DNA from: Methylophaga sp. 41_12_T18
GTDB taxonomy: Bacteria; Pseudomonadota; Gammaproteobacteria; Nitrosococcales; Methylophagaceae
Direction: 5' to 3'
DNA: 64,000 bases
NCBI GenBank assembly: GCA_002163115.1
Contig: MAAI01000052.1
Location: 1 to 64,000 of the forward strand
Part shown: one piece after another, positions 271 through 17,283 of the stretch
How the letters are laid out: the number at the start of each line of letters is the position of its first letter
How positions within the stretch are numbered: the stretch's first letter is position 1
The notes under the pieces: generated by a model
The model's database searches: none
What the model was told of the DNA's origin: nothing
Seen by the model: only the letters and a program-made list of their open reading frames with translations
Made by a program: the position numbers and the translations under genes

Positions 271-3200
271 TTAGAGCTTGATCGTGAAGCTGAGTCAGCA
301 ATGACTGCTCTCAACTTTGCCGATGGAATTGATCCTGAAATTGCTGAAATTTTCCTCGAAGAAGCGGATGAAGTTTCAACGGAACTAGTCGATTTGATTA
401 CACAGTGGCGACAGCATCATGATCAAGATAGTGTCGCCACTATTCGCCGCCACTTCCATACTCTGAAAGGAAGTGGACGTATGGCTGGAGCAGAGGTTAT
501 TGGCGAACTGGCATGGGCCGTTGAACATCTGCTCAATGAAATGTTAGAAGGTAGAGTCGCCGCCAACAATGCCATTGAACAAGTTGTTGTTGATGCTTTT
601 GCGATCCTGCCTACATTGCTTACTCGTTTCAGTCAGGGTGATATAACGACTACCGAACAAGTTGATGCCTTAATTTCACAAGCAACGGCCTTTTTCGCAA
701 CAGAGGAAGCTGCTGAGGTTGCTGAGGTTGCTGAGGTTGCTGAGGTTGCTGAGGTTGCTGAGGTTGCTGAGGTTGCTGAGGTTGCTGAGGTTGCTGAGGT
801 TGCTGAGGTTGCAAGTATTGAAGCAGAGTCAGATACACTGCAAAGCATTTTCAACGCTGAAGCTACACAACATATTCAAGCCTTACAACTAGCAGCCAAC
901 AAGCTTGATGAGCATCAACTAGTTAATAAAGATCTATTACGCTCAATTCATTCACTGAAAGGCTGCGCCAACATCGCGGAAGTTACACCTATCGCACTGT
1001 TGGCAACTCAATTTGATCAAGCTATACAAAGTTTATATAAACATAATATTCATTTATCTAGTGAACAAATCAAGCTGATCACTGATCTGATTACCGGGAT
1101 ATCAGATGTCTTAGAGAGTATCAAAACTGTAAGTATCGATGAACCTGACATTCGTGAGTTAGCCGATAAAATTTATTTCCTAACTCGAGAAGCTGATAAC
1201 TCTAATGTTAAGCAAGTACTTATCGACCCCGAAATATTAGTTGTCTTCCTCGAAGAAACCGATGAACTGTTAGATAAATACACTAAAAAGCTGAATAAAC
1301 TACAACATCAACCTGATGATATTGAACACCGAGATGCCGTTCATAAAGTATTAGTGAAACTTACTGACAATGCCAATCACAGTAAGTTACCGGAAATTGC
1401 CCAGTTATATCAGTTGCTTGATCAGTTAATTCTAACGCCCGATACGCAAGCAGAGACATTATTTAAGTTATTAGATCAAGGTTACGAAGAGCTCAATAAT
1501 CATATTGAAAACTTAATTCAAAACAAAGCTACACCAGAGCTCACTGAATTTAAGCAAAACGTTGAAGCCTTTATTTCACAAGTTCTAACGGTAGAAGAAC
1601 ATGAGGAACCGTCAACAGCTTCTCACTCATTCTCCATACCTGATATTGATCAAGACTTATTAGAAGCATTTACTGAAGAGGCAGCTGAGCTACTAGAATC
1701 GAGTGAAGCAGCCATAAAACTTTGGCAACAAGACCTTAACAATCAAGCTGCCGCCATGCAGTTACAGCGAGATTTACATACCTTAAAAGGTGGCTCTCGT
1801 TTAGCTGGAATCGCTCCAATTTCAGATTTAACCCATCAAATAGAATCATTAGTGCTGGCTGTTAGCAATGGCCAACAAGAAGGTCATGATGCGTTTTTTG
1901 ATTTACTTCAGCGTTGCCAAGATCGGTTAGCTGAAATGCAAGAACAACTGGCAGCACAATCCAATATTGCTTTCGCCGAAGATCTATTAGCAGAAATTGC
2001 AGTTCATTCCGATGAAAAATCTGCCGAAATTCAAGAGCCAAAAGAACAGATACAGCCCCCCACTCCTGTAGAAATGGCAACTCTTGCTGCAGAAGTTCAG
2101 CAAAAGCCTGTTGAGAGTCCTAAACTTCAAGTACCAGTCGTCCCCGCCGAGCAAATTCGAGTACGAGCTGACTTACTGGATTATTTGACCAACTTTGCCG
2201 GCGAAGTCAGTATCTCTCGTGACCGAGTGACTCAACAAAATAATGCTATTCATCAGCAATTGCATGAGATGGAAGACACGGTATCGCGACTACAAGAACA
2301 ATTACGAAAACTTGAAATTGAAACCGAGACACAAATTCTATTTCGCTACGAAGGAGAAATGCAGGCTCAACAGTCTGAATTTGATCCTTTAGAGCTGGAT
2401 CGTTTTTCAATGATTCAACAGTTATCTCGTGGCCTGACTGAGAGCGTCAGTGATTTAACTGATATCAGTCAGTCAATGCAAGTATTAATGAGTGAAACTG
2501 ATGTTATTTTACTGCAGCAGTCACGACTGAATACTGACTTACAACAAGGTTTAATGAATACCCGTTTATTGCCATTTAAGGGGGTTACTCCTCGCCTAGA
2601 ACGAATCGTCCGACAAACTAACAGTGAACTTGGCAAGCAATCAAAATTAACCATTGTCGGTACAGAGCTCGAACTCGATAGAACCATACTGGATCGTATT
2701 TCTGCGCCCATTGAACACCTACTACGTAATGCGATTGCTCATGGCTTAGAAACACCAAATGAAAGACAACAAGCAGGTAAAGATGAAACCGGCACTTTAA
2801 CCTTAACGCTTGAACGCGAAGGGTCTGAGATTTTAATTACCCTAAGCGATGATGGCCAAGGAATTAATGTCGAAAAAATAAAACAAAAAGCACTCGACCT
2901 GCACCTTATTCGTCTCGATGATATTCCTGCCGATGAAGAGTTAATCCAATTAATATTAAATTCCGGTTTTAGCACTGCTGATGAAGTCTCACAAATTTCT
3001 GGTCGCGGGGTCGGTATGGATGTAGTCAGCAATGAAATTCGTGCTTTAAAAGGTCGACTCAGTATCCACTCTGAAACAGGAAAAGGAACGACATTCAATA
3101 TTCGCTTACCTTTAACGTTATCAATACTGCAAGCTCTGCTGGTTAGCACACATGACCAACAATATGCTGTGCCGTTAGCCAATGTTTATTCAGGCGAACG

Positions 3201-3993
3201 TATCACGGTTAAAGAAATCAAAGCTATTTTGTCGCATGACAGTTCCGTTTACGAATTCAATGGTGAAAGCTATGACTTCGTACCGTTATGTAATTTATTA
3301 GGTCAACCATTTAATCTACCTGAGAGCTCCAAACAACAGTTACCACTACTTTTATTTCGCTCAGGTAAGTTACGCATCGCATTATTAGTCGATTCAATTA
3401 TTAGTAACCGCGAAATTGTTATTAAATCTGTCGGTGAACAACTGGGTAATATTGCAGCGATCAACGGCGCCACCATTCTCGGTGATGGCCAAGTCGTCTT
3501 TATTCTCGATATTCCAACACTAGTCGAAACCCGTTTTGAGGATGCACACCGAAATACACAAGATGCAGCCAACTTGGCATTAGAACTTGCCGAAATACAA
3601 GAACGCACGCCAAGAGCAATGGTTGTTGATGATTCTATTACCATTCGTAAAGCATCGGGCAATCTACTAAAACGTCATGGCTTCGAAGTCACTACCGCTC
3701 GTGATGGTGTGGATGCGCTTGCTCAGCTCCATGAACAGAAACCGGACCTCATCTTACTCGATGTAGAAATGCCGCGGATGGATGGCTTTGAGTTTGCTTC
3801 TATTGTCAGAAATGATGAGAAATTCAGACATTTACCCATCATTATGATCACTTCACGAACGGGTAAGAAACATCGTGATCGAGCAATGGGGATTGGTGTC
3901 AATGTCTATATGGGTAAACCCTACCAAGAAGAAGAGCTCGTTGCAGAAATGCAAAAGTTGCTTGGCGACAATTACCCTCATGCCAAACCTTAA
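1..3993 (+). CDS. chpA: ChpA/PilL-type hybrid chemotaxis histidine kinase, 5' end outside window
   Basis: CheA-family kinase that takes signals from a pilus chemoreceptor and phosphorylates response regulators controlling type IV pili. The frame is open from base 1, so the ATG at 301 is internal and the N-terminus is missing. Counting residues from base 1, repeats fill 1-100. Hpt domains follow, with phospho-His at 153, 317 and 593 in HTLKG/HSLKG/HTLKG motifs, plus one degenerate Hpt near 405-505 lacking the His. The dimerisation helix starts near 721. ATPase boxes are NAIAHG (N910), DDGQG (950) and GRGVGMD (1001), followed by a CheW domain. The C-terminal receiver has acidic pocket D1210/D1211, phospho-acceptor D1254 and K1306. 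It is followed directly by chpC. Family assignment is secure; the symbol rests on the multi-Hpt architecture and the neighbour. Confidence 0.9.
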   Translation, partial: LELETESLELSNELESAESDLEIDIEPTTALELETESLELSNELESAESDLEIDIEPTTALELDTESLELSNEFESAESDLEIDIEPTTDLELDREAESAMTALNFADGIDPEIAEIFLEEADEVSTELVDLITQWRQHHDQDSVATIRRHFHTLKGSGRMAGAEVIGELAWAVEHLLNEMLEGRVAANNAIEQVVVDAFAILPTLLTRFSQGDITTTEQVDALISQATAFFATEEAAEVAEVAEVAEVAEVAEVAEVAEVAEVAEVAEVASIEAESDTLQSIFNAEATQHIQALQLAANKLDEHQLVNKDLLRSIHSLKGCANIAEVTPIALLATQFDQAIQSLYKHNIHLSSEQIKLITDLITGISDVLESIKTVSIDEPDIRELADKIYFLTREADNSNVKQVLIDPEILVVFLEETDELLDKYTKKLNKLQHQPDDIEHRDAVHKVLVKLTDNANHSKLPEIAQLYQLLDQLILTPDTQAETLFKLLDQGYEELNNHIENLIQNKATPELTEFKQNVEAFISQVLTVEEHEEPSTASHSFSIPDIDQDLLEAFTEEAAELLESSEAAIKLWQQDLNNQAAAMQLQRDLHTLKGGSRLAGIAPISDLTHQIESLVLAVSNGQQEGHDAFFDLLQRCQDRLAEMQEQLAAQSNIAFAEDLLAEIAVHSDEKSAEIQEPKEQIQPPTPVEMATLAAEVQQKPVESPKLQVPVVPAEQIRVRADLLDYLTNFAGEVSISRDRVTQQNNAIHQQLHEMEDTVSRLQEQLRKLEIETETQILFRYEGEMQAQQSEFDPLELDRFSMIQQLSRGLTESVSDLTDISQSMQVLMSETDVILLQQSRLNTDLQQGLMNTRLLPFKGVTPRLERIVRQTNSELGKQSKLTIVGTELELDRTILDRISAPIEHLLRNAIAHGLETPNERQQAGKDETGTLTLTLEREGSEILITLSDDGQGINVEKIKQKALDLHLIRLDDIPADEELIQLILNSGFSTADEVSQISGRGVGMDVVSNEIRALKGRLSIHSETGKGTTFNIRLPLTLSILQALLVSTHDQQYAVPLANVYSGERITVKEIKAILSHDSSVYEFNGESYDFVPLCNLLGQPFNLPESSKQQLPLLLFRSGKLRIALLVDSIISNREIVIKSVGEQLGNIAAINGATILGDGQVVFILDIPTLVETRFEDAHRNTQDAANLALELAEIQERTPRAMVVDDSITIRKASGNLLKRHGFEVTTARDGVDALAQLHEQKPDLILLDVEMPRMDGFEFASIVRNDEKFRHLPIIMITSRTGKKHRDRAMGIGVNVYMGKPYQEEELVAEMQKLLGDNYPHAKP
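712..810 (+). repeat. Eleven perfect copies of GCTGAGGTT (Ala-Glu-Val)
   Basis: An uninterrupted 99-bp array of the 9-mer GCTGAGGTT, in frame, gives (AEV)11 between two Hpt domains of the kinase. The 9-bp unit preserves frame, so copy-number change would only alter linker length. The DNA copies are identical, which suggests recent slippage. Confidence 0.97.
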
Positions 3994-7829: not shown

Positions 7830-8813
7830 ATGAGTAGTAACATCTCAGCCAACTGGACGAGCGTCAATGCAGCTTGCCAACCTTTAGTTGACAACCTTAT
7901 TGCTGACGCCCAAGCACTACAGCTTGAAATTAGTACCCTGAGCAATGGCACTCGCATCGTTGATGCCGGTATCAACTGCACCGGCGGTCTTGAAGCTGGA
8001 CGATTAATCGGTGAAATCTGCATGGGCGGTCTTGGTACCGTGACACTAGGCAGTAATAGTGGTTTTGACAATTGGCCTTGGTCAGTTAATGTTCATGCTA
8101 AAACGCCGGTATTAAGCTGCTTAGGCAGTCAATATGCAGGCTGGAGCCTTTCCCATAAGAGTGAAGACAGTAAATTCTTTGCACTAGGATCAGGTCCAGG
8201 TCGCGCCTTAGCAGGTCGTGAAGAAGTACTTAAAGAATTTGGCTATAAAGATGAAGCTAAATCAACCTGTATTGTCTTAGAAGTCGATAGCTTCCCACCT
8301 ATTGAAGTTGCAGAAAAAGTGGCTGCCAACTGTGGTATCAAGCCTGAAGACCTAACATTTATACTCACGCCAACATCAAGTTTAGCCGGTGTAATGCAAA
8401 TTGCTATTCGTGTATTAGAAGTGGCAATGCACAAAGCTCACACTTTGCATTTCCCTATGGAAAAAATCGTTGATGGTTTTGGTGTAACACCTGTTGCACC
8501 TCCAGGTGGTGACTTCATGACAGGCATGGGTCGTACTAACGATGCCATTTTGTATGGCGGTATGGTTCATCTATTTATCAATGGCACAGATGAAGAAGCA
8601 CAAGACTTAGCTGAAAAAATGCCTAGTAATACTTCATCAGATTACGGTCGTCCTTTTGCTGAAATCTTTAAAGCTTATGAATATGATTTCTTCAAAGTGG
8701 ATCCAATGTTATTTAGCCCGGCAAAAGTGATTATTACTAATGCTGCTACCGGCAAAAGTTTCACTGCTGGCGAATTAAACAATGAGCTACTCACTACTTC
8801 ATTTGGCCTATAA
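7830..8813 (+). CDS. mch: Methenyltetrahydromethanopterin cyclohydrolase
   Basis: Catalyses the reversible hydrolysis of N5,N10-methenyl-H4MPT to N5-formyl-H4MPT, a step in formaldehyde oxidation to formate in methylotrophs. The 327-residue protein is full length and shows family-wide landmarks: [14 protein letters not shown] near residue 50, [27 protein letters not shown] and [20 protein letters not shown]. An AGGA ribosome binding site sits 10 bp before the ATG. It heads a plus-strand run of C1-cofactor genes and has a hairpin directly after it. This gene is the strongest single indicator of H4MPT-linked C1 metabolism here. Confidence 0.97.
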
Positions 8814-8862: not shown

Positions 8863-9792
8863 ATGACACCTCCTCGTATTGTTATCTTCAACGACACCCA
8901 TGGTTGGCACAGTAATCAACTGGTCACAGCTTTAGCTGATTTAGGCATTGAAACTGTACTCGCCGATCTTGCCGACTGCGTTATTGATCTAGACAGTGCA
9001 ACTGGGCTCAACATTCCTGGCTTTGATAATCAATTACCTGCAGCAGCAATGGTCCGAGGCATCGCGCCAGGCAGCTTAGAGCAAATCACCTTACGGATGG
9101 ATGTATTGCATACCTTAGCTGAGCTCAATATTCCTGTATTTAACCCGGCATCAGCTATAGAGCATACGGTTGATAAAGCTCGAACCTCGCTACGGTTGCA
9201 TTTAGCAGGCTTAACGACACCGCGTACTTGGGCCACTGAAAACCGTCAACAAGCAAAGCTAATTGCTCAGCAACAAATAGCTAAAGGTAAGTCGCTGGTC
9301 ATTAAGCCTTTATTTGGTTGCCAAGGTAAGGGTATTGAAAAAATCGACACTATCGACCAGTTTGAAGCTATTCAAGCAGTCGGAGATGCCTTTTATCTTC
9401 AGCAATATATTGAACCCTTTACGCCTGAACAATGGCAGGACTGGCGGTTATTTGTAATTGATGGCAAGGTCTGTGCTGCCATGTCGAGACAGTCTGATCA
9501 CTGGATCACCAATTTTGCTCAAGGTGGCCATTGTCTTGCAACTACGGTTACAGCCGAAATGGAACAACTGGCAATAAAAGCCACCCAAGTCGTACAAGCA
9601 GACTATGCTGGAGTCGATCTAATTAGAACAAAGGAAGGTAGCTTTACCGTGTTAGAAGTAAATAGTGTTCCAGCTTGGAAAGGCCTATTTCAAGCAACTG
9701 GAATTGATGTTGCAAGCAACCTAGCTCAAGCATTAGCCAAACGAATAAAACACCCTTCCACCGCCAACTCAAAGTCAGACCATGCTATCTAG
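8863..9792 (+). CDS. RimK-like ATP-grasp ligase, probable H4MPT glutamate ligase (MptN-like)
   Basis: A 309-residue ATP-grasp protein. The family joins glutamate to a carboxylate acceptor using ATP, and MptN does this for tetrahydrosarcinapterin or H4MPT. Visible ATP-grasp features are SLVIKPLFGCQGKGIEKI near residue 145 (the ATP-binding lysine and glycine loop), WRLFVIDGKVCAAMSR, and the metal-binding end DLIRTKEGSFTVLEVNSVPAW. It follows mch in the same direction, separated by a hairpin, and overlaps the next gene by 11 bp. The role in tailoring H4MPT or methylofuran is inferred from family and position. Equivalent genes are widespread in bacterial H4MPT clusters. Confidence 0.8.
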   Translation: MTPPRIVIFNDTHGWHSNQLVTALADLGIETVLADLADCVIDLDSATGLNIPGFDNQLPAAAMVRGIAPGSLEQITLRMDVLHTLAELNIPVFNPASAIEHTVDKARTSLRLHLAGLTTPRTWATENRQQAKLIAQQQIAKGKSLVIKPLFGCQGKGIEKIDTIDQFEAIQAVGDAFYLQQYIEPFTPEQWQDWRLFVIDGKVCAAMSRQSDHWITNFAQGGHCLATTVTAEMEQLAIKATQVVQADYAGVDLIRTKEGSFTVLEVNSVPAWKGLFQATGIDVASNLAQALAKRIKHPSTANSKSDHAI

Positions 9793-10651
9793 TCAGAATA
9801 TAGAAGAAAGTATCCGCTGGGCGTGTGAACAGGAAGTTGCAGCTCCAAAGCCTGGCAATGTTAACTGCTTTAGTGATGGCCACAATATGCAAGTGCAAGA
9901 CTTCATCGCCAGTGCACATGCTATTGCTCCCGTCTTAGCCCAACAAGATATCGCTATTGGCGAATTGATTCTGCAAGCAATACAAGCCACCCGCACCGTT
10001 GTCGATTGCAATACCAATCTAGGCATTGTGTTACTTTTTGCCCCTCTTTGCTATGCTGCCCATCATTGTGAAAGCTTTGACCAACTACCCGCTGAATTAG
10101 AGCGCGCACTCAATGCTCTAACCGTTTCTGATGCCGAAAATTGTTATCAGGCGATTCGATTAGCCGAAGCTGGCGGGATGGGCAAAGAACAAAATCAAGA
10201 TATTAATGACACCCCAACAATTACCTTAAAACAAGCGATGTTATTAGCCCAAAATAGGGACAATATAGCCAAACAATACGGGAATAATTTCCGAGAAATT
10301 TTCCATCTAGGCCTGCCAAGTTTGACAGCTGCGATTAAATGTGAAGAAAGTATTGAATGGGCTACCGCTTTAGCGTATCTTACGATCTTATCAACCGAGC
10401 CTGATACTTTGATTTGTCGAAAGCAATCATTAGAGCAGGCCAGGGCAGTGACAACGCAAGCAAGAAATTTATTACGTAAAACTAAGAACAACAACAAGTT
10501 AAGTAACAATAAATCAGATATAATTGCTTGGGATAAAGAATTAAAGAAGAACTCAATTAACCCTGGAACCACCGCAGATTTGACCGCAGCGACATTATTG
10601 CTGTGCGCATTCCAGTCAATGTTTTCTTCACAAAGAATTTTGATACCTTGA
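9782..10651 (+). CDS. CitG/MdcB-like (triphosphoribosyl-dephospho-CoA synthase family) protein of the H4MPT cluster
   Basis: A 289-residue member of the CitG family, whose founding enzyme makes the triphosphoribosyl-dephospho-CoA prosthetic group. Family signatures are EVAAPKPGNVN near residues 17-27, NTNLGIVLLFAPL, and a C-terminal NPGTTADLTAATLL. It overlaps the upstream ATP-grasp gene by 11 bp, so it is translationally coupled. The homologue in Methylobacterium H4MPT clusters is called orf5. There is no citrate lyase nearby, so the ancestral CoA-derivative role is unlikely. A transfer on a ribosyl or pABA intermediate of H4MPT is plausible but unproven. The linker near residues 230-255 is Asn/Lys rich. 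Confidence 0.75.
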   Translation: MLSSQNIEESIRWACEQEVAAPKPGNVNCFSDGHNMQVQDFIASAHAIAPVLAQQDIAIGELILQAIQATRTVVDCNTNLGIVLLFAPLCYAAHHCESFDQLPAELERALNALTVSDAENCYQAIRLAEAGGMGKEQNQDINDTPTITLKQAMLLAQNRDNIAKQYGNNFREIFHLGLPSLTAAIKCEESIEWATALAYLTILSTEPDTLICRKQSLEQARAVTTQARNLLRKTKNNNKLSNNKSDIIAWDKELKKNSINPGTTADLTAATLLLCAFQSMFSSQRILIP

Positions 10652-10777: not shown

Positions 10778-11296
10778 ATGCCAGTAATCGATCGCGTACT
10801 TGTAGGTGAATCTTTAGTCATTGAAGATGGTGACTTAGATAACGTAGCTCACATTGACTTACTTATGGGCCCACGTGGCTCAGCAGCAGAAGATGCTTTC
10901 TGCCGCACTATGACAGACCAAAAAGCCGGTGTTAACGGTCTTTTAGCTGTTGTTGCTCCTAACCTTATGGTTAAACCTGCGACAGTTATGTTTAACAAAG
11001 TTACTATCAAAAACATGAAGCAAGCTGTTCAAATGTTCGGCCCTGCACAACGTGGTGTTGCGTTAGCAGTAGCTGAATGTGTTGAAAACGGTACAATCCC
11101 AGCTAGCGAAGCTGATGATTGCTTCATCTGTGTTGGTGTATTTATCTCTCCAACAGCTGACAGTGATCAAAAAATCCAAGACTGGAACTACCGTGCGACT
11201 AAAGAGTCAATCGAACGTGCAGTAGCTCGTGAGCCTAAAGCGGCTGACGTTGTTGCACAATACAAAGACAGCGCACACCCATTTGCAGCTAGCTAA
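10778..11296 (+). CDS. fae: Formaldehyde-activating enzyme
   Basis: Catalyses condensation of formaldehyde with tetrahydromethanopterin to methylene-H4MPT; it is cytoplasmic and usually among the most abundant proteins of methylotrophs. The 172-residue protein matches Fae along its full length: [20 protein letters not shown] at the start, then [20 protein letters not shown] and [11 protein letters not shown]. Codon choice is visibly biased (GGT, CGT, GTT), consistent with high expression. Its own ribosome binding site is AGGA, 8 bp before the ATG, and overlaps the end of the short leader ORF. A hairpin follows the gene. Confidence 0.98.
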
Positions 11297-11319: not shown

Positions 11320-11339
11320 GCCCTCTCTTTAGAGAGGGC
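11320..11339. terminator. Shared hairpin between convergent fae and hisA-like gene
   Basis: GCCCTCTC, loop TTTA, GAGAGGGC. The stop codon of the minus-strand HisA-like gene lies inside it. There is no strong T-run on either side, so it is at best a weak bidirectional terminator. Confidence 0.5.
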
Positions 11340-12039
11340 GGTGTCCTGTTTCAAAACGTCTAAGCACACCGCTGCTTATCGCTCCCCTATGCAATGCACT
11401 TGCTATTAGTGCGGCATCAATTCCTTGCTCAGTTAAACTCTCCAAGTCAGCCTCATTACGAATTCCACCTGCAGCAACAATTCGGCTATTTACAGCTAAA
11501 CCTTTCATTTTATTTAACAACATAAAGTCAGGCCCCATAGCCTCACCTACAAAATCTAAATTCATCACAATGACATCTTCAGGCCAAGCTTCAGGTTGTG
11601 CTAACAGTGAGTCATTACCTAAGAATTTTCCATGCTGTAGATCCAAAGATAAAACCCCACTTCGTGTATCACTATTTGCTATTAAATCTAACTCGACCAA
11701 ACTCTCACTAGCAAGAATGCAGCGGAGCCCTTTAATATTAGCCAGCTGTTGCCAGTCCTGCCGTGTTTGTATTCCTGCATCTAACCAGAATTCAGTATCC
11801 GGAAAATATTGGTGTAATTTGCTATAAAAATCGATATTAAATTGCTGCTTAACAATCGCATCCAAATCTGCAATATAGATCGTGTTAAAAGGATGCCATG
11901 TTAAAAAGTCTCTTATCACTTCAATAGGTTCCACTGATGAGGTCAGTACTGATTGCAACGGTGCATAATTAGCCCTATCACCTCCGCTAGCATGGACAAC
12001 AATCCCCCCCTTTACATCAATGACCGGTATAATTTGCAC
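11329..12039 (-). CDS. HisA/HisF-like TIM-barrel protein of the C1 cofactor cluster
   Basis: A 236-residue (beta/alpha)8 barrel of the HisA/HisF family. HisA itself isomerises an N-ribosyl phosphate to a ribulosyl phosphate. Both acid-base aspartates seem present: D8 in IIPVIDVKGG and D133 in LSLDLQHGKF. Phosphate-binding loops VAAGGIRNEADL and ALIASALHRGA are also there. It starts with GTG behind GAAGGAAG. It lies on the opposite strand, convergent with fae and only 23 bp from the divergent mfnD. No his genes surround it, so a role in H4MPT or methylofuran synthesis is inferred from context. A stray histidine isomerase is the alternative. Confidence 0.75.
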   Translation of the reverse strand: MQIIPVIDVKGGIVVHASGGDRANYAPLQSVLTSSVEPIEVIRDFLTWHPFNTIYIADLDAIVKQQFNIDFYSKLHQYFPDTEFWLDAGIQTRQDWQQLANIKGLRCILASESLVELDLIANSDTRSGVLSLDLQHGKFLGNDSLLAQPEAWPEDVIVMNLDFVGEAMGPDFMLLNKMKGLAVNSRIVAAGGIRNEADLESLTEQGIDAALIASALHRGAISSGVLRRFETGHRPL

Positions 12040-12062
12040 TGTACTTCCTTCAAAAAACTCAA

Positions 12063-13055
12063 ATGAAACTATTCGTTTACGAACATATTACCAGTGGTGC
12101 TTTAACCGGACAGGATCTTCCTCAAAGTCTTGCTCATGAAGGCGATGCGATGCTCACTGCTATTTTGCAAGATCTTGCAGAAATACCACAGCTGGAATTA
12201 GTCATCTTACGTGATGTTCGTCTGCAAGCTATCGCTAAACTAAATAACGACATAAGCTTGGATTATTTATGGGTTAGTAGTTCCAGTAGCTTTGATCAAC
12301 AATGGCAGCAAGCTTTATCAATAGCTGAACATAGCCTGCTCATTGCACCAGAAACAGAGCAACAGCTCATCTCTATTCAACAACAAGTTATAGACAGTGG
12401 TAAACGTTATCTTGGATGCTCACAACATGCAACAGCATTAACCACTGACAAGCTCGACTGCTTCCAACTCTTAACAAGCCATGGCATTACAACGCCAACA
12501 ACCAAGCTTGCTACAGATTGGCATCTCGCTGATTTTAATTACGCTACCAGTTTTATCGTTAAGCCTGTCGACGGTGCTGGTTGCATTGATACCATGCACT
12601 TTCAAACACCACAACAAGTCAGTCGCTACCTAGAACAACAACCAGAGCCCAAGCTCTCAAAGTTGATTGTTCAACCTTTTATTGTCGGAGAAGCGGCCAG
12701 CCTTAGCTTGTTTATTGATGAAACAGTTTCAGTATTAGCCTTAAATGGCCAACAGATCAGCCAACAAGGTTCACAGTTAATTTGTACGAGCTCTAATACC
12801 AACAATACATTATTAGCTAAATTACCTTTAAATCAGGCTCAAGAGCTTGTAGATAGAATTTTTGATATCATTCCCGGCTTGTGGGGCTTTGTCGGCATTG
12901 ATCTAATCCTATCGGCTTCTGGCCCTGTTGTAATTGAAATTAACCCACGATTAACGACATCTTATCTTAATCTTAAGTCTACATTAACTAACAACCCTGC
13001 TGAATTGCTAATTAATGCAATACCTAAGCAAATAGCCTCAAGGTTTGCATCATGA
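12063..13055 (+). CDS. mfnD: ATP-grasp ligase, MfnD-like (tyramine/tyrosine-glutamate ligase)
   Basis: A 330-residue ATP-grasp protein resembling MfnD, which adds glutamate to tyramine in methanofuran synthesis. It begins MKLFVYEHITSGALTG, a start typical of this subfamily in methylotrophs. The ATP-grasp core shows LTTDKLDCFQLL near residue 140, SFIVKPVDGAGCIDT, and the catalytic end GFVGIDLILSASGPVVIEIN followed by PRLTTSY. No clear Shine-Dalgarno precedes the ATG, and only 23 bp separate it from the divergent HisA-like gene, so its promoter must lie inside that gene. It overlaps the next gene by 4 bp (ATGA). Confidence 0.8.
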   Translation: MKLFVYEHITSGALTGQDLPQSLAHEGDAMLTAILQDLAEIPQLELVILRDVRLQAIAKLNNDISLDYLWVSSSSSFDQQWQQALSIAEHSLLIAPETEQQLISIQQQVIDSGKRYLGCSQHATALTTDKLDCFQLLTSHGITTPTTKLATDWHLADFNYATSFIVKPVDGAGCIDTMHFQTPQQVSRYLEQQPEPKLSKLIVQPFIVGEAASLSLFIDETVSVLALNGQQISQQGSQLICTSSNTNNTLLAKLPLNQAQELVDRIFDIIPGLWGFVGIDLILSASGPVVIEINPRLTTSYLNLKSTLTNNPAELLINAIPKQIASRFAS

Positions 13056-14092
13056 CAAAACACGCTTCTTACTTTTCAGGTTGGGATATTGGCGGTGCCC
13101 ATGTGAAAGTGGCTCGCTGTGATCACTCTGGGAAACTAATTGAGGTTATTCAACTAGCCTGCCCTCTTTGGAAAGGCATTGAGCACCTTCATATAGCAAT
13201 ACAATCAGCTCAACAGCAGTTGGGTAATCAAGGTGATATTTCAGCGATTACCATGACCGGAGAGTTAGTTGATATTTTTGCCGATCGACAAACTGGTGTT
13301 AGTGAAATTTTAGCTTGTATTAACAACTATATACCAGCCGATAAAATTCATGTTTTTGCTAGTAAGCAATGGTTATCTCCTGCTGATTCCAAAATACAAT
13401 GGCAAGATGTAGCCTCGATGAACTGGTTAGCTAGTGCTAACTTCGTAGCTAATAATATTGCTGATGGTTTATTTATTGATCTAGGCAGTACTACCTGTGA
13501 CATTATTGCTATTAACAATGGAGTAGCTTGTCCGCGAGGCTTTGATGATCATCAACGTCAACTCTCTCGTGAGCTCCTCTATACCGGTGCAATAAGAACT
13601 CCTTTGCTCGCACTGACCAATCAAGCTCCTTTTAATGGCCAACTGTTTAGCCTAGCTGCAGAGGTATTTGCAACCACGGGGGATTGCTGGCGCTTGCTCA
13701 ATAAAATTGAAGCCGACATGATTATTGACGACAGTGCTGATGGCCAGCCATGGCAACCGGAAGATTGTGCTCGTCGTATTGCCAGGTTGATTGGCAGTGA
13801 TGCTGATGACCATTCGCCTCAACAATGGCAGCAACTCGCGCAATGGTTTGCCGAGCAGCAACTACATCAGGTCATTAATGCTTGTCTGCAAGTAATATCT
13901 AATCATAACTTATCCTTAGACGCGCCGATTATTGGTGCTGGCGTAGGTCGTTTTATCGCCCAACAATGTGCGCAGCGACTCGAACGACCTTATATTGATT
14001 TCGCTAGCCAAGTCAGTCCCTCATTATCAGCAGCTGCAGATCATGCTCCTGCGACTGCCATTGCTCTTCTAGCTCAACAACAGTTCACGTAA
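13052..14092 (+). CDS. mfnF: H4MPT-linked C1 pathway protein, MfnF-like furan-tyramine coupling enzyme
   Basis: A 346-residue protein with an actin/hydantoinase-like fold. In archaea MfnF joins the aminomethylfuran diphosphate to gamma-glutamyl-tyramine. The sequence shows SGWDIGGAHVKVARCD at the start, ITMTGELVDIFADR, GLFIDLGSTTCDIIAI near residue 150 and GAGVGRFIAQQ. These phosphate-loop motifs are also found in the group annotated only as a probable H4MPT-linked C1 transfer protein. It is coupled by a 4-bp overlap to mfnD, with pabB 10 bp downstream. The function is transferred from the archaeal homologue and not tested in this lineage. Confidence 0.75.
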   Translation: MTKHASYFSGWDIGGAHVKVARCDHSGKLIEVIQLACPLWKGIEHLHIAIQSAQQQLGNQGDISAITMTGELVDIFADRQTGVSEILACINNYIPADKIHVFASKQWLSPADSKIQWQDVASMNWLASANFVANNIADGLFIDLGSTTCDIIAINNGVACPRGFDDHQRQLSRELLYTGAIRTPLLALTNQAPFNGQLFSLAAEVFATTGDCWRLLNKIEADMIIDDSADGQPWQPEDCARRIARLIGSDADDHSPQQWQQLAQWFAEQQLHQVINACLQVISNHNLSLDAPIIGAGVGRFIAQQCAQRLERPYIDFASQVSPSLSAAADHAPATAIALLAQQQFT

Positions 14093-14102
14093 AATAGGCA
14101 CT

Positions 14103-15488
14103 ATGACAGCGAATTTCCCCTCCTTATGTATTGAACTCCCTTATAAACCGGACAGTGCCGACTATTTCGAAGCTATTCGTGATTTATCGTGGCCAGTGTT
14201 TCTGGATAGTGCCAATACAGATCTTGATAGTGGCCGCTACGATATTATGGCTGCTGATCCATTTATTACCTTGCAAACACGTGATTTAGACACCTGTATA
14301 GATTATCGTGACGGTAAACAACAACATAGCAGTGACGATCCATTCACAATATTGCAGTCTATTCTCGCCCCCTTATCACAAGCGAGTTCAGACCTGCCGT
14401 TTACTGGCGGTGCAATAGGTTATTTGGGTTATGATCTAGGCCGTAGAATTGAAGATATTCCACAACAAACTATTGATGCTGAAGATCTTCCTGAGATGGC
14501 GGTTGGCATCTATGATTGGGCCATTGTTATTGATCATAAAAATAAACAATGCTTTTTGGCCAGTAATGGCTGCGATCCCAAAACAGATGAAAACTGGGAT
14601 GCACTCGTTAACAAACTTAGACAACCAGTCGAGAAACAGCAAGCGAAGTTCACGGTCTCGGGCAAGTTACAAGCTAACTTTGACAAAGCCAGTTACCAAA
14701 GTGCATTTAACAAAATTAAATCCTATATCGTTGAAGGCGATTGCTATCAAGTCAACCTAGCTAAACGCTTTGAAATTGAAGCCCAAGGCGATCCATGGCA
14801 TGCCTATAAACTTTTACGTCAATATAATGCGGCTCCGTTTTCGGCCTATTTTGCTACAGACTCAGCAAGTATTTTAAGCTCATCACCAGAACGCTTATTG
14901 CATGTTGCCGAACAGCAGGTTGAAACCAAGCCAATAAAAGGCACACGTCCTCGTGATTTACTAAATAAAAGTAACGATGAAGCACTCGGTATTGAACTAC
15001 AAAACAGTATCAAAGATCGTGCTGAAAACCTGATGATTGTTGATTTGTTACGTAATGACCTAGGCAAAGTCTGCGTGCCGGGCTCGATTTCAGTACCGAA
15101 ACCATTCGAACTGGAATCATTTGCTACTGTACATCACTTAGTAACTACCATTGTTGGCAAGCTTGAGCAGAATGAAACGGCCGTTTCTTTATTAAGAGCA
15201 TGCTTCCCTGGTGGTTCAATCACTGGCGCACCCAAGCTACGAGCAATGGAAATCATTGAAGAGTTAGAACCTCATCGCCGCGGTGTGTATTGTGGCAGCA
15301 TTGCTTACATTGGCTTTGATGGAAAAATGGATAGTAACATCACCATTCGCACTCTCGTTTACAACGATAATCGACTGCGTTTTTGGGCTGGCGGCGGTAT
15401 TGTTGCTGACTCTGATGTAGATGCTGAGCACCAAGAAATCCTTGATAAAGCTTCCGCTATACTCAAGCTAATAGAAAAGCTGCATTAA
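14103..15488 (+). CDS. pabB: Aminodeoxychorismate synthase component I
   Basis: Converts chorismate and ammonia to 4-amino-4-deoxychorismate, the precursor of p-aminobenzoate, which feeds both folate and H4MPT. The 461-residue protein belongs to the anthranilate synthase I/PabB family, with SPERLL, ETKPIKGTRPR (the PIKGT catalytic lysine typical of PabB), VDLLRNDLGKVC, PGGSITGAPKLRAMEI and WAGGGIVADSD. There is no PabC fusion and no glutamine amidotransferase partner in the window. Its position inside the cofactor cluster suggests pABA supply for H4MPT. An anthranilate synthase is less likely given the PIKGT motif. Confidence 0.92.
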   Translation: MTANFPSLCIELPYKPDSADYFEAIRDLSWPVFLDSANTDLDSGRYDIMAADPFITLQTRDLDTCIDYRDGKQQHSSDDPFTILQSILAPLSQASSDLPFTGGAIGYLGYDLGRRIEDIPQQTIDAEDLPEMAVGIYDWAIVIDHKNKQCFLASNGCDPKTDENWDALVNKLRQPVEKQQAKFTVSGKLQANFDKASYQSAFNKIKSYIVEGDCYQVNLAKRFEIEAQGDPWHAYKLLRQYNAAPFSAYFATDSASILSSSPERLLHVAEQQVETKPIKGTRPRDLLNKSNDEALGIELQNSIKDRAENLMIVDLLRNDLGKVCVPGSISVPKPFELESFATVHHLVTTIVGKLEQNETAVSLLRACFPGGSITGAPKLRAMEIIEELEPHRRGVYCGSIAYIGFDGKMDSNITIRTLVYNDNRLRFWAGGGIVADSDVDAEHQEILDKASAILKLIEKLH

Positions 15489-15490
15489 TA

Positions 15491-16078
15491 ATGTTGGTCG
15501 TGAAATTAGGCGGTAGTCTCTATAACACGAAAGAACTCAAAGCTTGGCTCACAGTATTAGCCAGCTATGCTGAACAACAGACTATTATTATCGTTCCTGG
15601 TGGTGGCCCTTTTGCCGATCAAGTACGAACAGCTCAGCTACTCCATCAGTTTGATGATCATCATGCTCACCACATGGCCTTATTAGCAATGGCTCAATTT
15701 GCGTTGCTAATTTCGGGTTTAGAGCCGCAATGCCAACTCTATTATTACGACAAAACTAATCAACCATCAATACCGTCATTATCAGTGTGGCTACCTGAAC
15801 AATCTATACTTGCCTATAGTGAAATTTCACAAGATTGGTCGGTCACTTCAGACAGTCTTGCATTATGGTTAAGCCAACAATTAGATGCAGAGCAATTAAC
15901 GCTCGTTAAGAGATGTCCGCAAAAGAGTCAATTGATAGCCGAGCTAGTACAAGCACAAATATTAGATGCAAGTTTTGAACAATTTTATCGTCAACAAGCG
16001 ATCAAAACTGACATCATTCATTATCAAAACTATGCTGCTTTTAATAATGACAATCAGAATACTGTAATCCATCTATGA
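15491..16078 (+). CDS. mfnE: Amino-acid-kinase-fold protein, MfnE-like furan phosphate kinase
   Basis: A 195-residue small member of the amino acid kinase superfamily. It carries MLVVKLGGSLYNTKELKAW at the N-terminus (the LGGS phosphate loop) and IIVPGGGPFADQVR near residue 38. Archaeal MfnE phosphorylates aminomethyl-furanmethanol phosphate to the diphosphate used by MfnF. It sits 2 bp after pabB and overlaps the next gene by 4 bp, so the whole block 12063-17283 looks like one operon. Length matches MfnE and is too short for aspartokinase or acetylglutamate kinase. Confidence 0.78.
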   Translation: MLVVKLGGSLYNTKELKAWLTVLASYAEQQTIIIVPGGGPFADQVRTAQLLHQFDDHHAHHMALLAMAQFALLISGLEPQCQLYYYDKTNQPSIPSLSVWLPEQSILAYSEISQDWSVTSDSLALWLSQQLDAEQLTLVKRCPQKSQLIAELVQAQILDASFEQFYRQQAIKTDIIHYQNYAAFNNDNQNTVIHL

Positions 16079-17283
16079 CTAACGACTCACCTACTCTTAA
16101 CGCGTTACTAGAACATCTCCAGCAGTTCACCAGCCAATCCGCTATAAATTCATCTTTATTAGCTATCCAAGAAGATGCAAACAATCATGAGCAAATTAAC
16201 AGCCTCTGTCGGGCGCTAATAAATGAAGGTCAGCGTCATAACCAAAGTGCATGGGCAGCACATATGACATCATCACCAACTGCTGCCAGTATTTTAGGCC
16301 AAGTATTAGCAGGCTTACACAATGGTAACTTGCTATCACCACAGCTATATCCCTTATTAGATAAAATCGAACAACAACTAATAAGCTGGTTTTGTCAGTT
16401 ATATCGCCATCAATACGGTCATTTCACTGCCGGGGCGACCTACGCTAACCTAGAAGCACTTTGGCAAGCTAGAGAACATGCAAGCCACGATTCAAAGCTG
16501 GTTTATGGCAGTCATGCTAGTCACTTTTCTGTGGCAAAAGCCTGTCAGGTATTAGGTCTTACTTTTCAAGAAATTGACACTGATCAATATGACCGAATAT
16601 TGCCATCGGCATTAGCTGAAGTCTGCCAACAACAAGTACCTATTGCAGTCGTACTCACTGCTGGTACGTCGGCTTGTGGCGAAATAGATCCACTCTCGGA
16701 GTGCATACAAATATGTCAGGCATTTGATTGTTGGAGCCATGTTGATGCGGCTTGGGGCGCTGGCCTTGTGTTATTAGAACAATATCAACCGCTCTTCTGT
16801 GCTGTAGCAGATGCAGATTCGCTCACTATCGATCCACACAAAGCCTTTTCGCAACCAAAACCATGTGGCCTATTACTCTACCAGAGGCCATTACAGCCGT
16901 TATTTGCTATTGATGCAAACTACCTAGAACACCCACCTAAACAAACACTACCGGGCTCATTTGGGGGTGAGTTATTTCTACCATTATGGTCTAGCCTAAT
17001 GTTTTCCGGCGTTGCTGACTTACGTAAGCAAATGCAACATCGGCTACAGCAAGCGCAATGTTTTGCTGAGTTCCTAACATCGCAGCCTTACTGGTGGCAT
17101 CATCAGTCTCCAACAGGAATAATTTGCTTTAGGCCTTCAGCTGACATTAATTTAGATGATTTAGTAACTTTAGGATTATTCTCAAAAGCAAAAGTGAATA
17201 ATAAGACGGTATATCGCTGTGTTTTTGCTTCACAAGCTGCCCAAGCTACTAGCTTAATTACTGCGCTTGAGCCTTTTTGCTAA
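16075..17283 (+). CDS. mfnA: PLP-dependent decarboxylase, MfnA-like (L-tyrosine decarboxylase)
   Basis: A 402-residue group II (glutamate/tyrosine-type) PLP decarboxylase. It shows a substrate-binding start (AAHMTSSPTAASILGQ), VYGSHASHFSVAKACQVLG, TAGTSACGEIDPL, HVDAAWGAGLVL and the PLP-lysine motif TIDPHKAFSQPKPCGLLL. Archaeal MfnA makes tyramine, the phenolic core of methanofuran. Its place as last gene of the mfnD-F-pabB-E block argues for that role. Its 3' end overlaps the convergent damX gene by 26 bp. Aspartate or glutamate decarboxylation cannot be excluded from sequence alone. Confidence 0.75.
   Translation: MTNDSPTLNALLEHLQQFTSQSAINSSLLAIQEDANNHEQINSLCRALINEGQRHNQSAWAAHMTSSPTAASILGQVLAGLHNGNLLSPQLYPLLDKIEQQLISWFCQLYRHQYGHFTAGATYANLEALWQAREHASHDSKLVYGSHASHFSVAKACQVLGLTFQEIDTDQYDRILPSALAEVCQQQVPIAVVLTAGTSACGEIDPLSECIQICQAFDCWSHVDAAWGAGLVLLEQYQPLFCAVADADSLTIDPHKAFSQPKPCGLLLYQRPLQPLFAIDANYLEHPPKQTLPGSFGGELFLPLWSSLMFSGVADLRKQMQHRLQQAQCFAEFLTSQPYWWHHQSPTGIICFRPSADINLDDLVTLGLFSKAKVNNKTVYRCVFASQAAQATSLITALEPFC

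Follow-up and report, generated by a model that had tools for sequence, protein, structure and literature searches.

Orf17 of Methylophaga sp. 41_12_T18: a HisA-shaped barrel with a changed catalytic set in a methylofuran gene island

A gene for a HisA-like barrel lies among the C1 cofactor genes of Methylophaga sp. 41_12_T18, and the question is what such a protein does there. The window, the 64,000-nucleotide stretch of contig MAAI01000052.1 in which the gene was analyzed, belongs to an assembly of 2.43 Mb in 94 contigs. A first-pass annotation, made from the letters of the window, described an open reading frame at 11329–12039 as a HisA-like barrel with intact acid–base residues and proposed an Amadori-type or aldolase-like step on a ribosyl or furan phosphate. 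The reading frame held up, at 236 amino acids, but it lies on the minus strand (12039..11329) with a GTG start at 12039; the plus strand of the same interval is full of stops. The protein matches PF00977 (E 4.8e-24; 85.5 bits, cut-off 23.6), a Shine–Dalgarno-like GAAGGA precedes the GTG, and relatives share 33–60% identity, so this is a real gene and not a chance frame. Its surroundings, with the supporting family models, are these:

7830–8813, plus strand: mch, methenyl-H4MPT cyclohydrolase (TIGR03120, cut-off passed)
8863–9792, plus strand: orf5, MyfB-like ATP-grasp glutamate ligase (NF040720, 223.9 bits, below cut-off 350; TIGR00768 cut-off passed)
9782–10651, plus strand: orf7, CitG-like (PF01874)
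10778–11296, plus strand: fae, formaldehyde-activating enzyme, convergent with orf17 (TIGR03126, cut-off passed)
11329–12039, minus strand: orf17, HisA-shaped protein of 236 amino acids assigned to methylofuran biosynthesis (reading frame, PF00977, alignment, tree, model)
Codons within orf17, minus strand: D8 12018–12016; D87 11781–11779; E112 11706–11704; D133 11643–11641; V164 11550–11548
12040–12062: 23-bp gap separating the start codons of orf17 and the divergent mfnD, holding the GAAGGA of orf17
12063–13055, plus strand: orf1, an ATP-grasp protein nearest to MfnD, the tyramine–glutamate ligase (NF040722, 81.6 bits, below cut-off 400; PF02655)
13052–14092, plus strand: orf9, MfnF homologue (TIGR03123, 326.7 bits, cut-off 244.1 passed; NF040623, 168.3 bits, below cut-off 520)
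14103–15488, plus strand: pabB-like aminodeoxychorismate synthase component I (TIGR00553, 369.8 bits, cut-off 328.4 passed)
15491–16078, plus strand: orf21, MfnE homologue of 195 amino acids (NF040622, 73.4 bits, cut-off 300)
16075–17283, plus strand: MfnA-like PLP decarboxylase of the tyramine type (TIGR03812, 109.7 bits, below cut-off 299.4; PF00282)

The MfnE homologue, at only 195 amino acids, covers positions 1–139 of the 211 in the archaeal model NF040622. Between the convergent fae and orf17, a perfect inverted repeat at 11320–11339, GCCCTCTC-TTTA-GAGAGGGC, overlaps the orf17 stop; it is possibly a two-way terminator and is absent from the terminator-scan listing. Far from the island, a CheA-like reading frame at 301–3993 holds about ten Ala-Glu-Val repeats at roughly 770–870, as read by eye.

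The gene is almost certainly the bacterial orf17 and not hisA. Its best NCBIfam model is TIGR00734, matched over the full length at 121.6 bits, below the curated cut-off of 179.85; the HisA model TIGR00007 gives 56.2 bits (cut-off 228.95) and the HisF model TIGR00735 gives 20.7 (cut-off 294.55), so neither is passed. At E 0.001 the MfnB family PF04476 finds no match in the protein. In a profile search the scores are bimodal, with Orf17 at 195 bits or more and the other matches at 58 bits or less. The archaeal-type model is less selective. At E 1e-25 across 14 control genomes, TIGR00734 matches Methanocaldococcus jannaschii and Methanosarcina acetivorans and also Thermus composti and Deinobacterium chartae, so at that threshold it cannot separate Orf17 from HisA; its cut-off is passed by only one of the 14. 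Four loci carry orf17 within longer open frames of 338 to 633 amino acids, where Pfam finds only PF00977, and these were read as run-on frames instead of gene fusions. Among viral contigs, 15 pattern matches yielded no confirmed relative.

A tree of 84 rows sets Orf17, HisA, and HisF apart as three clades with supports of 100/100, 98/92, and 100/99. Its 32 Orf17 rows are every fourth row of an alignment, with the window counted twice, since its sequence is identical to that of one locus (L033); the 27 HisA and 25 HisF rows come from Pseudomonadota genomes only. With long stems and midpoint rooting, the tree does not give the order of branching among the three. The barrel itself was well called. 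An AlphaFold2 model built on an 81-row alignment has a pLDDT of 95.2 and a pTM of 0.92; of the solved folds listed as matches, those of PriA and HisA lie nearest (Foldseek E 3e-13; VIA Z 26.4 over 222–226 residues, rmsd 2.3–2.5). The best explanation is a (beta/alpha)8 barrel that descended from HisA and HisF, or shares an ancestor with them, and has since left their chemistry behind.

The simplest alternative, that this is the ordinary HisA of histidine synthesis, has the PF00977 match in its favor and next to no chance of being right. The lack of his genes beside orf17 was correctly noticed, and the suggested search for another hisA found one. A full HisA is encoded at C63:84813–85499 and HisF at C63:85586–86287, on a different contig from orf17, which rules orf17 out as the sole HisA of the genome. 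The weak score against TIGR00007 and the separate clade argue the same way.

The residues tell what has been kept from HisA and what has been changed. They were compared in an alignment of 81 rows, the window plus the best 80 of 551 loci, in which four rows ended at a stop codon and one (L095) is incomplete at a contig end. In known HisA and PriA enzymes the catalytic Asp pair is D7/D176 (SeHisA), D11/D175 (MtPriA), or Asp9/Asp169 (Actinomyces urogenitalis PriA), as published; besides PMC8141765, the papers drawn on are PMC5020050, PMC11365854, PMC3615186, PMC5404923, PMC9088769, PMC11350729, and PMC9982363. In Orf17, D8 is present in 80 of the 80 rows that reach the position and aligns with the first of the pair. 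That residue, D7 of SeHisA and D11 of MtPriA, we take to be the catalytic base, which is thus present in Orf17.

The second member of the pair is gone. The catalytic acid of HisA (SeHisA D176, PriA Asp169) aligns with V164, a position that is Val in 69, Ile in 11, and Thr in 1 of the 81 rows and Asp in all 27 HisA and all 25 HisF sequences. The mapping comes from three alignments that are gap-free near the site: with PriA 4x2r, with the HisA and PriA chains in the PDB, and with the 27 HisA and 25 HisF. Also, the strand-6 Thr found in 52 of 52 HisA and HisF is Met (M159) in 80 of the 81 Orf17 rows, and the stretch from the strand-5 Asp to this position spans 26 residues in Orf17 against 37 in HisA/PriA. 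The second aspartate credited to HisA in the first-pass annotation, D133, is indeed conserved in 81 of 81 rows, but it aligns with SeHisA D129 and HisF D130 instead of with the catalytic acid. In HisF the acid–base pair is reported as D11/D130, and D8 and D133 of Orf17 are placed like it on strands 1 and 5.

The phosphate loops show a similar split. In the C-terminal half the loop is kept (G191-G192, A213-S214). The distal, N-half site retains G89 and S111, but D87 replaces its first Gly, E112 replaces a Lys/Ala, and Q91 stands where SeHisA has its phosphate-gripping R83; only 18 of the 81 rows have Arg there. R83 and S103 are the distal-phosphate grippers reported for SeHisA, and the S103 position (S111) is Ser or Thr in 81 of 81 Orf17 rows. 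The earlier statement that both phosphate loops are intact therefore stands for one and partly for the other. D87 is present in all 81 rows, where 27 of 27 HisA and 25 of 25 HisF have Gly; E112 is equally invariant, at a position that is Lys, Ala, or Gln in HisA and Ala in HisF. R194 is found in 80 of the 81 rows and H217 in 81, and R22, Y25, and W152 are invariant in every row reaching them. No position has Lys in 85% of the 81 rows.

These changes bear on both chemistries first proposed for the gene. With Val or Ile in place of the HisA catalytic acid in 80 of the 81 rows, a HisA-like Amadori step is unlikely; judged from the residues, Orf17 is very probably not an isomerase of that kind. 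A type-I aldolase acting through a Schiff base, the other suggestion, is unsupported since the window and the best 80 of 551 loci share no conserved Lys. Orf17 is a known orphan family, and the correction made here is that its catalytic set differs from an intact HisA set.

Published genetics narrow the pathway. In PMC8141765, orf17 of Methylorubrum extorquens PA1 could be deleted only when mxaF was also gone, and the mutant made no methylofuran and no MYFR-Glu intermediates; it still made methenyl-dH4MPT, and plasmid-borne orf17 restored it. This phenotype puts the action of Orf17 early in methylofuran synthesis and disfavors a methanopterin step in bacteria, and it bears out the cofactor-cluster setting recognized at first. 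By orthology with the M. extorquens gene, the Methylophaga protein would be needed, with high probability, for methylofuran before the first glutamylated intermediates. Among the matches listed, only PMC8141765 reports this role for Orf17, in a search mostly outside the subscription journals.

That methanopterin synthesis includes an Amadori-type isomerization of a ribosyl phosphate by Orf17 might still be read from the HisA fold, the retained base D8, the position within an H4MPT gene island, and the sharing of the same 18 of 398 genomes by Orf17 and Mch. A methanopterin role was once suggested for MJ0703 of M. jannaschii, which the same paper names as an Orf17 homologue. Against this stand the acid changed to Val/Ile in 80 of 81 rows, the Thr changed to Met in 80, and a distal Arg in only 18 (window plus best 80 of 551), together with a mutant that lacks methylofuran and continues to make methenyl-dH4MPT (PMC8141765). 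For bacteria the proposal, and with it the ribosyl substrate of the first-pass annotation, is largely refuted and highly improbable.

The neighborhood in relatives agrees with a C1 cofactor setting. The window order mch-orf5-orf7-fae-orf17 is that of the published Methylosinus trichosporium island. Among the best 80 of 551 confirmed loci, whose record titles name only Proteobacteria, genes near orf17 are fae (71 loci), mfnF (69), orf7 (68), myfB (65), mch (62), mfnE (47), mfnD (47), pabB (39), mfnA (22), and mfnB (11). Of these 80 loci, 68 have fae directly beside orf17, and in 70 the next marked gene 5' of orf17, on the opposite strand, is mfnD (47) or mfnF (23). One record titled as a Klebsiella pneumoniae metagenome-assembled genome (L144) carries a methylotrophy island with orf17; the label probably reflects a mislabeled bin. 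The homologues of mfnA and mfnD that neighbor orf17 in the window make it probable that the methylofuran product here is the tyramine form.

A further possibility was that Orf17 stands in for an absent MfnB, which forms the furan, or an absent MfnC, the aminating enzyme. The 64-kb window has no MfnB match, as had been noted, and MfnC is reported as unassigned in M. extorquens. The genome nevertheless encodes one MfnB, its sole match, at C63:69134–69778, with three conserved lysines and adjoining genes for DUF447, DUF6513, and a flavoprotein. Among 19 genomes, the host's own and its relatives, Orf17 and MfnB occur in the same 17; among 398 Pseudomonadota genomes, MfnB is present in 20, including all 18 that have Orf17. 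These data rule out Orf17 as an MfnB substitute, as had been proposed for a missing mfnB step. With no conserved lysine for a Schiff base in the window and the best 80 of 551 loci, and with no PLP enzyme among the fold matches listed, a role in either missing step is very unlikely.

The same survey shows what Orf17 tracks. Orf17 and Mch occupy identical sets of 18 among the 398 genomes, and the two additional MfnB genomes (G209 and G389) both lack Mch, MfnF, and Orf17; the distribution of Orf17 thus matches the C1 pathway rather than MfnB by itself. In this sample methylofuran and H4MPT are found only jointly, so co-occurrence cannot tell the two apart. In G209 (L071:9129–10238, G209:C12) MfnB is fused to FolB and the first of the conserved lysines is Thr; the three are invariant in the 26 rows compared apart from this one. 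In G389 (L164:7935–10951, G389:C19) MfnB keeps all three and sits between aldehyde-dehydrogenase-like and SDR-like genes with an adenylate-forming ligase-like gene nearby, names that were read from sequence; this arrangement may point to furan synthesis outside methanofuran. Because G389 has MfnB with its lysines and no Orf17, furan formation itself seems independent of Orf17, on the example of this one genome.

The reading that best fits these results is that Orf17 is a barrel that left HisA and HisF chemistry and became dedicated to an early methylofuran step, and we give it a rough probability of 0.55. Its exact place in the pathway is proposed more tentatively, at somewhat under even odds: it may act downstream of MfnB on phosphorylated furan intermediates, in the conversion of 4-HFC-P to aminomethylfuran phosphate, in formation of the diphosphate, or in coupling to tyramine. 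The C-half loop (G191-G192, S214) and the Orf17-specific R194 would hold a phosphate or diphosphate. The acid pair D87/E112, also specific to Orf17 and located at the second-phosphate grip of HisA, could bind either a metal ion or the ammonium of the aminomethyl group, and D8 and D133, placed like the HisF acid–base pair, would carry out the proton transfers. The strand ends of the model and the alignment suggest that D87, E112, and R194 lie in the pocket.

One elaboration casts Orf17 as a furanylmethyl transferase, or as MfnF's partner in such a transfer, joining aminomethylfuran diphosphate to the phenolic group of tyramine or tyrosine and so forming the ether bond of methylofuran. The amine would rest on D87/E112, with R194 and the C-half loop holding the diphosphate, which would liken the barrel to dihydropteroate synthase and ThiE. 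Those two are heteroaryl-methyl-diphosphate enzymes. The elaboration is improbable, and the link to MfnF coupling is a guess. Mirror-tree comparison over 53 loci gave a partial distance correlation of 0.41 between Orf17 and MfnF; over the 28 loci with nine genes it was 0.12, with pabB highest at 0.475, and the two gene sets disagree.

Against a catalytic role in the furan branch, purified archaeal MfnA–F are reported to build the methylofuran core in vitro, and that account names no Orf17-type protein there; no pathway step is thus obviously missing. This lends itself to the view that Orf17 is non-catalytic, a scaffold or stabilizer for MfnF, MfnE, or MfnB whose barrel merely binds a phosphorylated intermediate. 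The gene also diverges faster than its neighbors, with a mean Kimura distance of 1.07 against 0.64 for mch and 0.42 for fae, and in M. trichosporium its reported transcript levels are 38 and 45 against 24353 for fae1. The correlation with MfnF over 53 loci would fit as well, but it falls away in the nine-gene set. Through this divergence the pocket residues are invariant; D8, D133, D87, E112, R22, Y25, W152, and H217 are kept in every row that reaches them, across the window and the best 80 of 551 loci, which would be needless in a mere scaffold. A purely structural role is unlikely.

Orf17 is ordinary as a gene find and moderately interesting as a cofactor-pathway step. All 18 Mch-bearing genomes among the 398 Pseudomonadota have it, and a homologue is reported in M. 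jannaschii. The missing HisA acid, and the invariant residues around what was the distal phosphate site, turn a vague HisA-like label into a short set of candidate residues and substrates.

Among known systems, the closest are the Orf17 proteins of Methylorubrum extorquens (Mext_1835), another PF00977 barrel and one needed for methylofuran, and Methylosinus trichosporium (METTOv1_40015), with the same mch-orf5-orf7-fae-orf17 order; the likeness is one of family and gene order. M. extorquens differs in reportedly having no mfnA and mfnD homologues, whereas these are neighbors of orf17 here. The archaeal HisA/HisF family TIGR00734 (hisAF_rel), to which MJ0703 presumably belongs, is the best full-length model for the protein, yet the score is below cut-off. 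With HisA and PriA the Methylophaga protein shares the fold (VIA Z 26.4 to PriA), the base D8, D133, and the C-half phosphate loop; it differs in the acid replaced by Val/Ile, the Thr replaced by Met, the distal Arg mostly lost, and the new D87 and E112. From HisF it is set apart by its own clade, by 20.7 bits to TIGR00735, and by the changed strand-6 Asp and Thr that HisF and HisA have in common, but it resembles HisF in its paired strand-1 and strand-5 Asp residues, the Ala-Ser of the last phosphate loop, and the His at 217.
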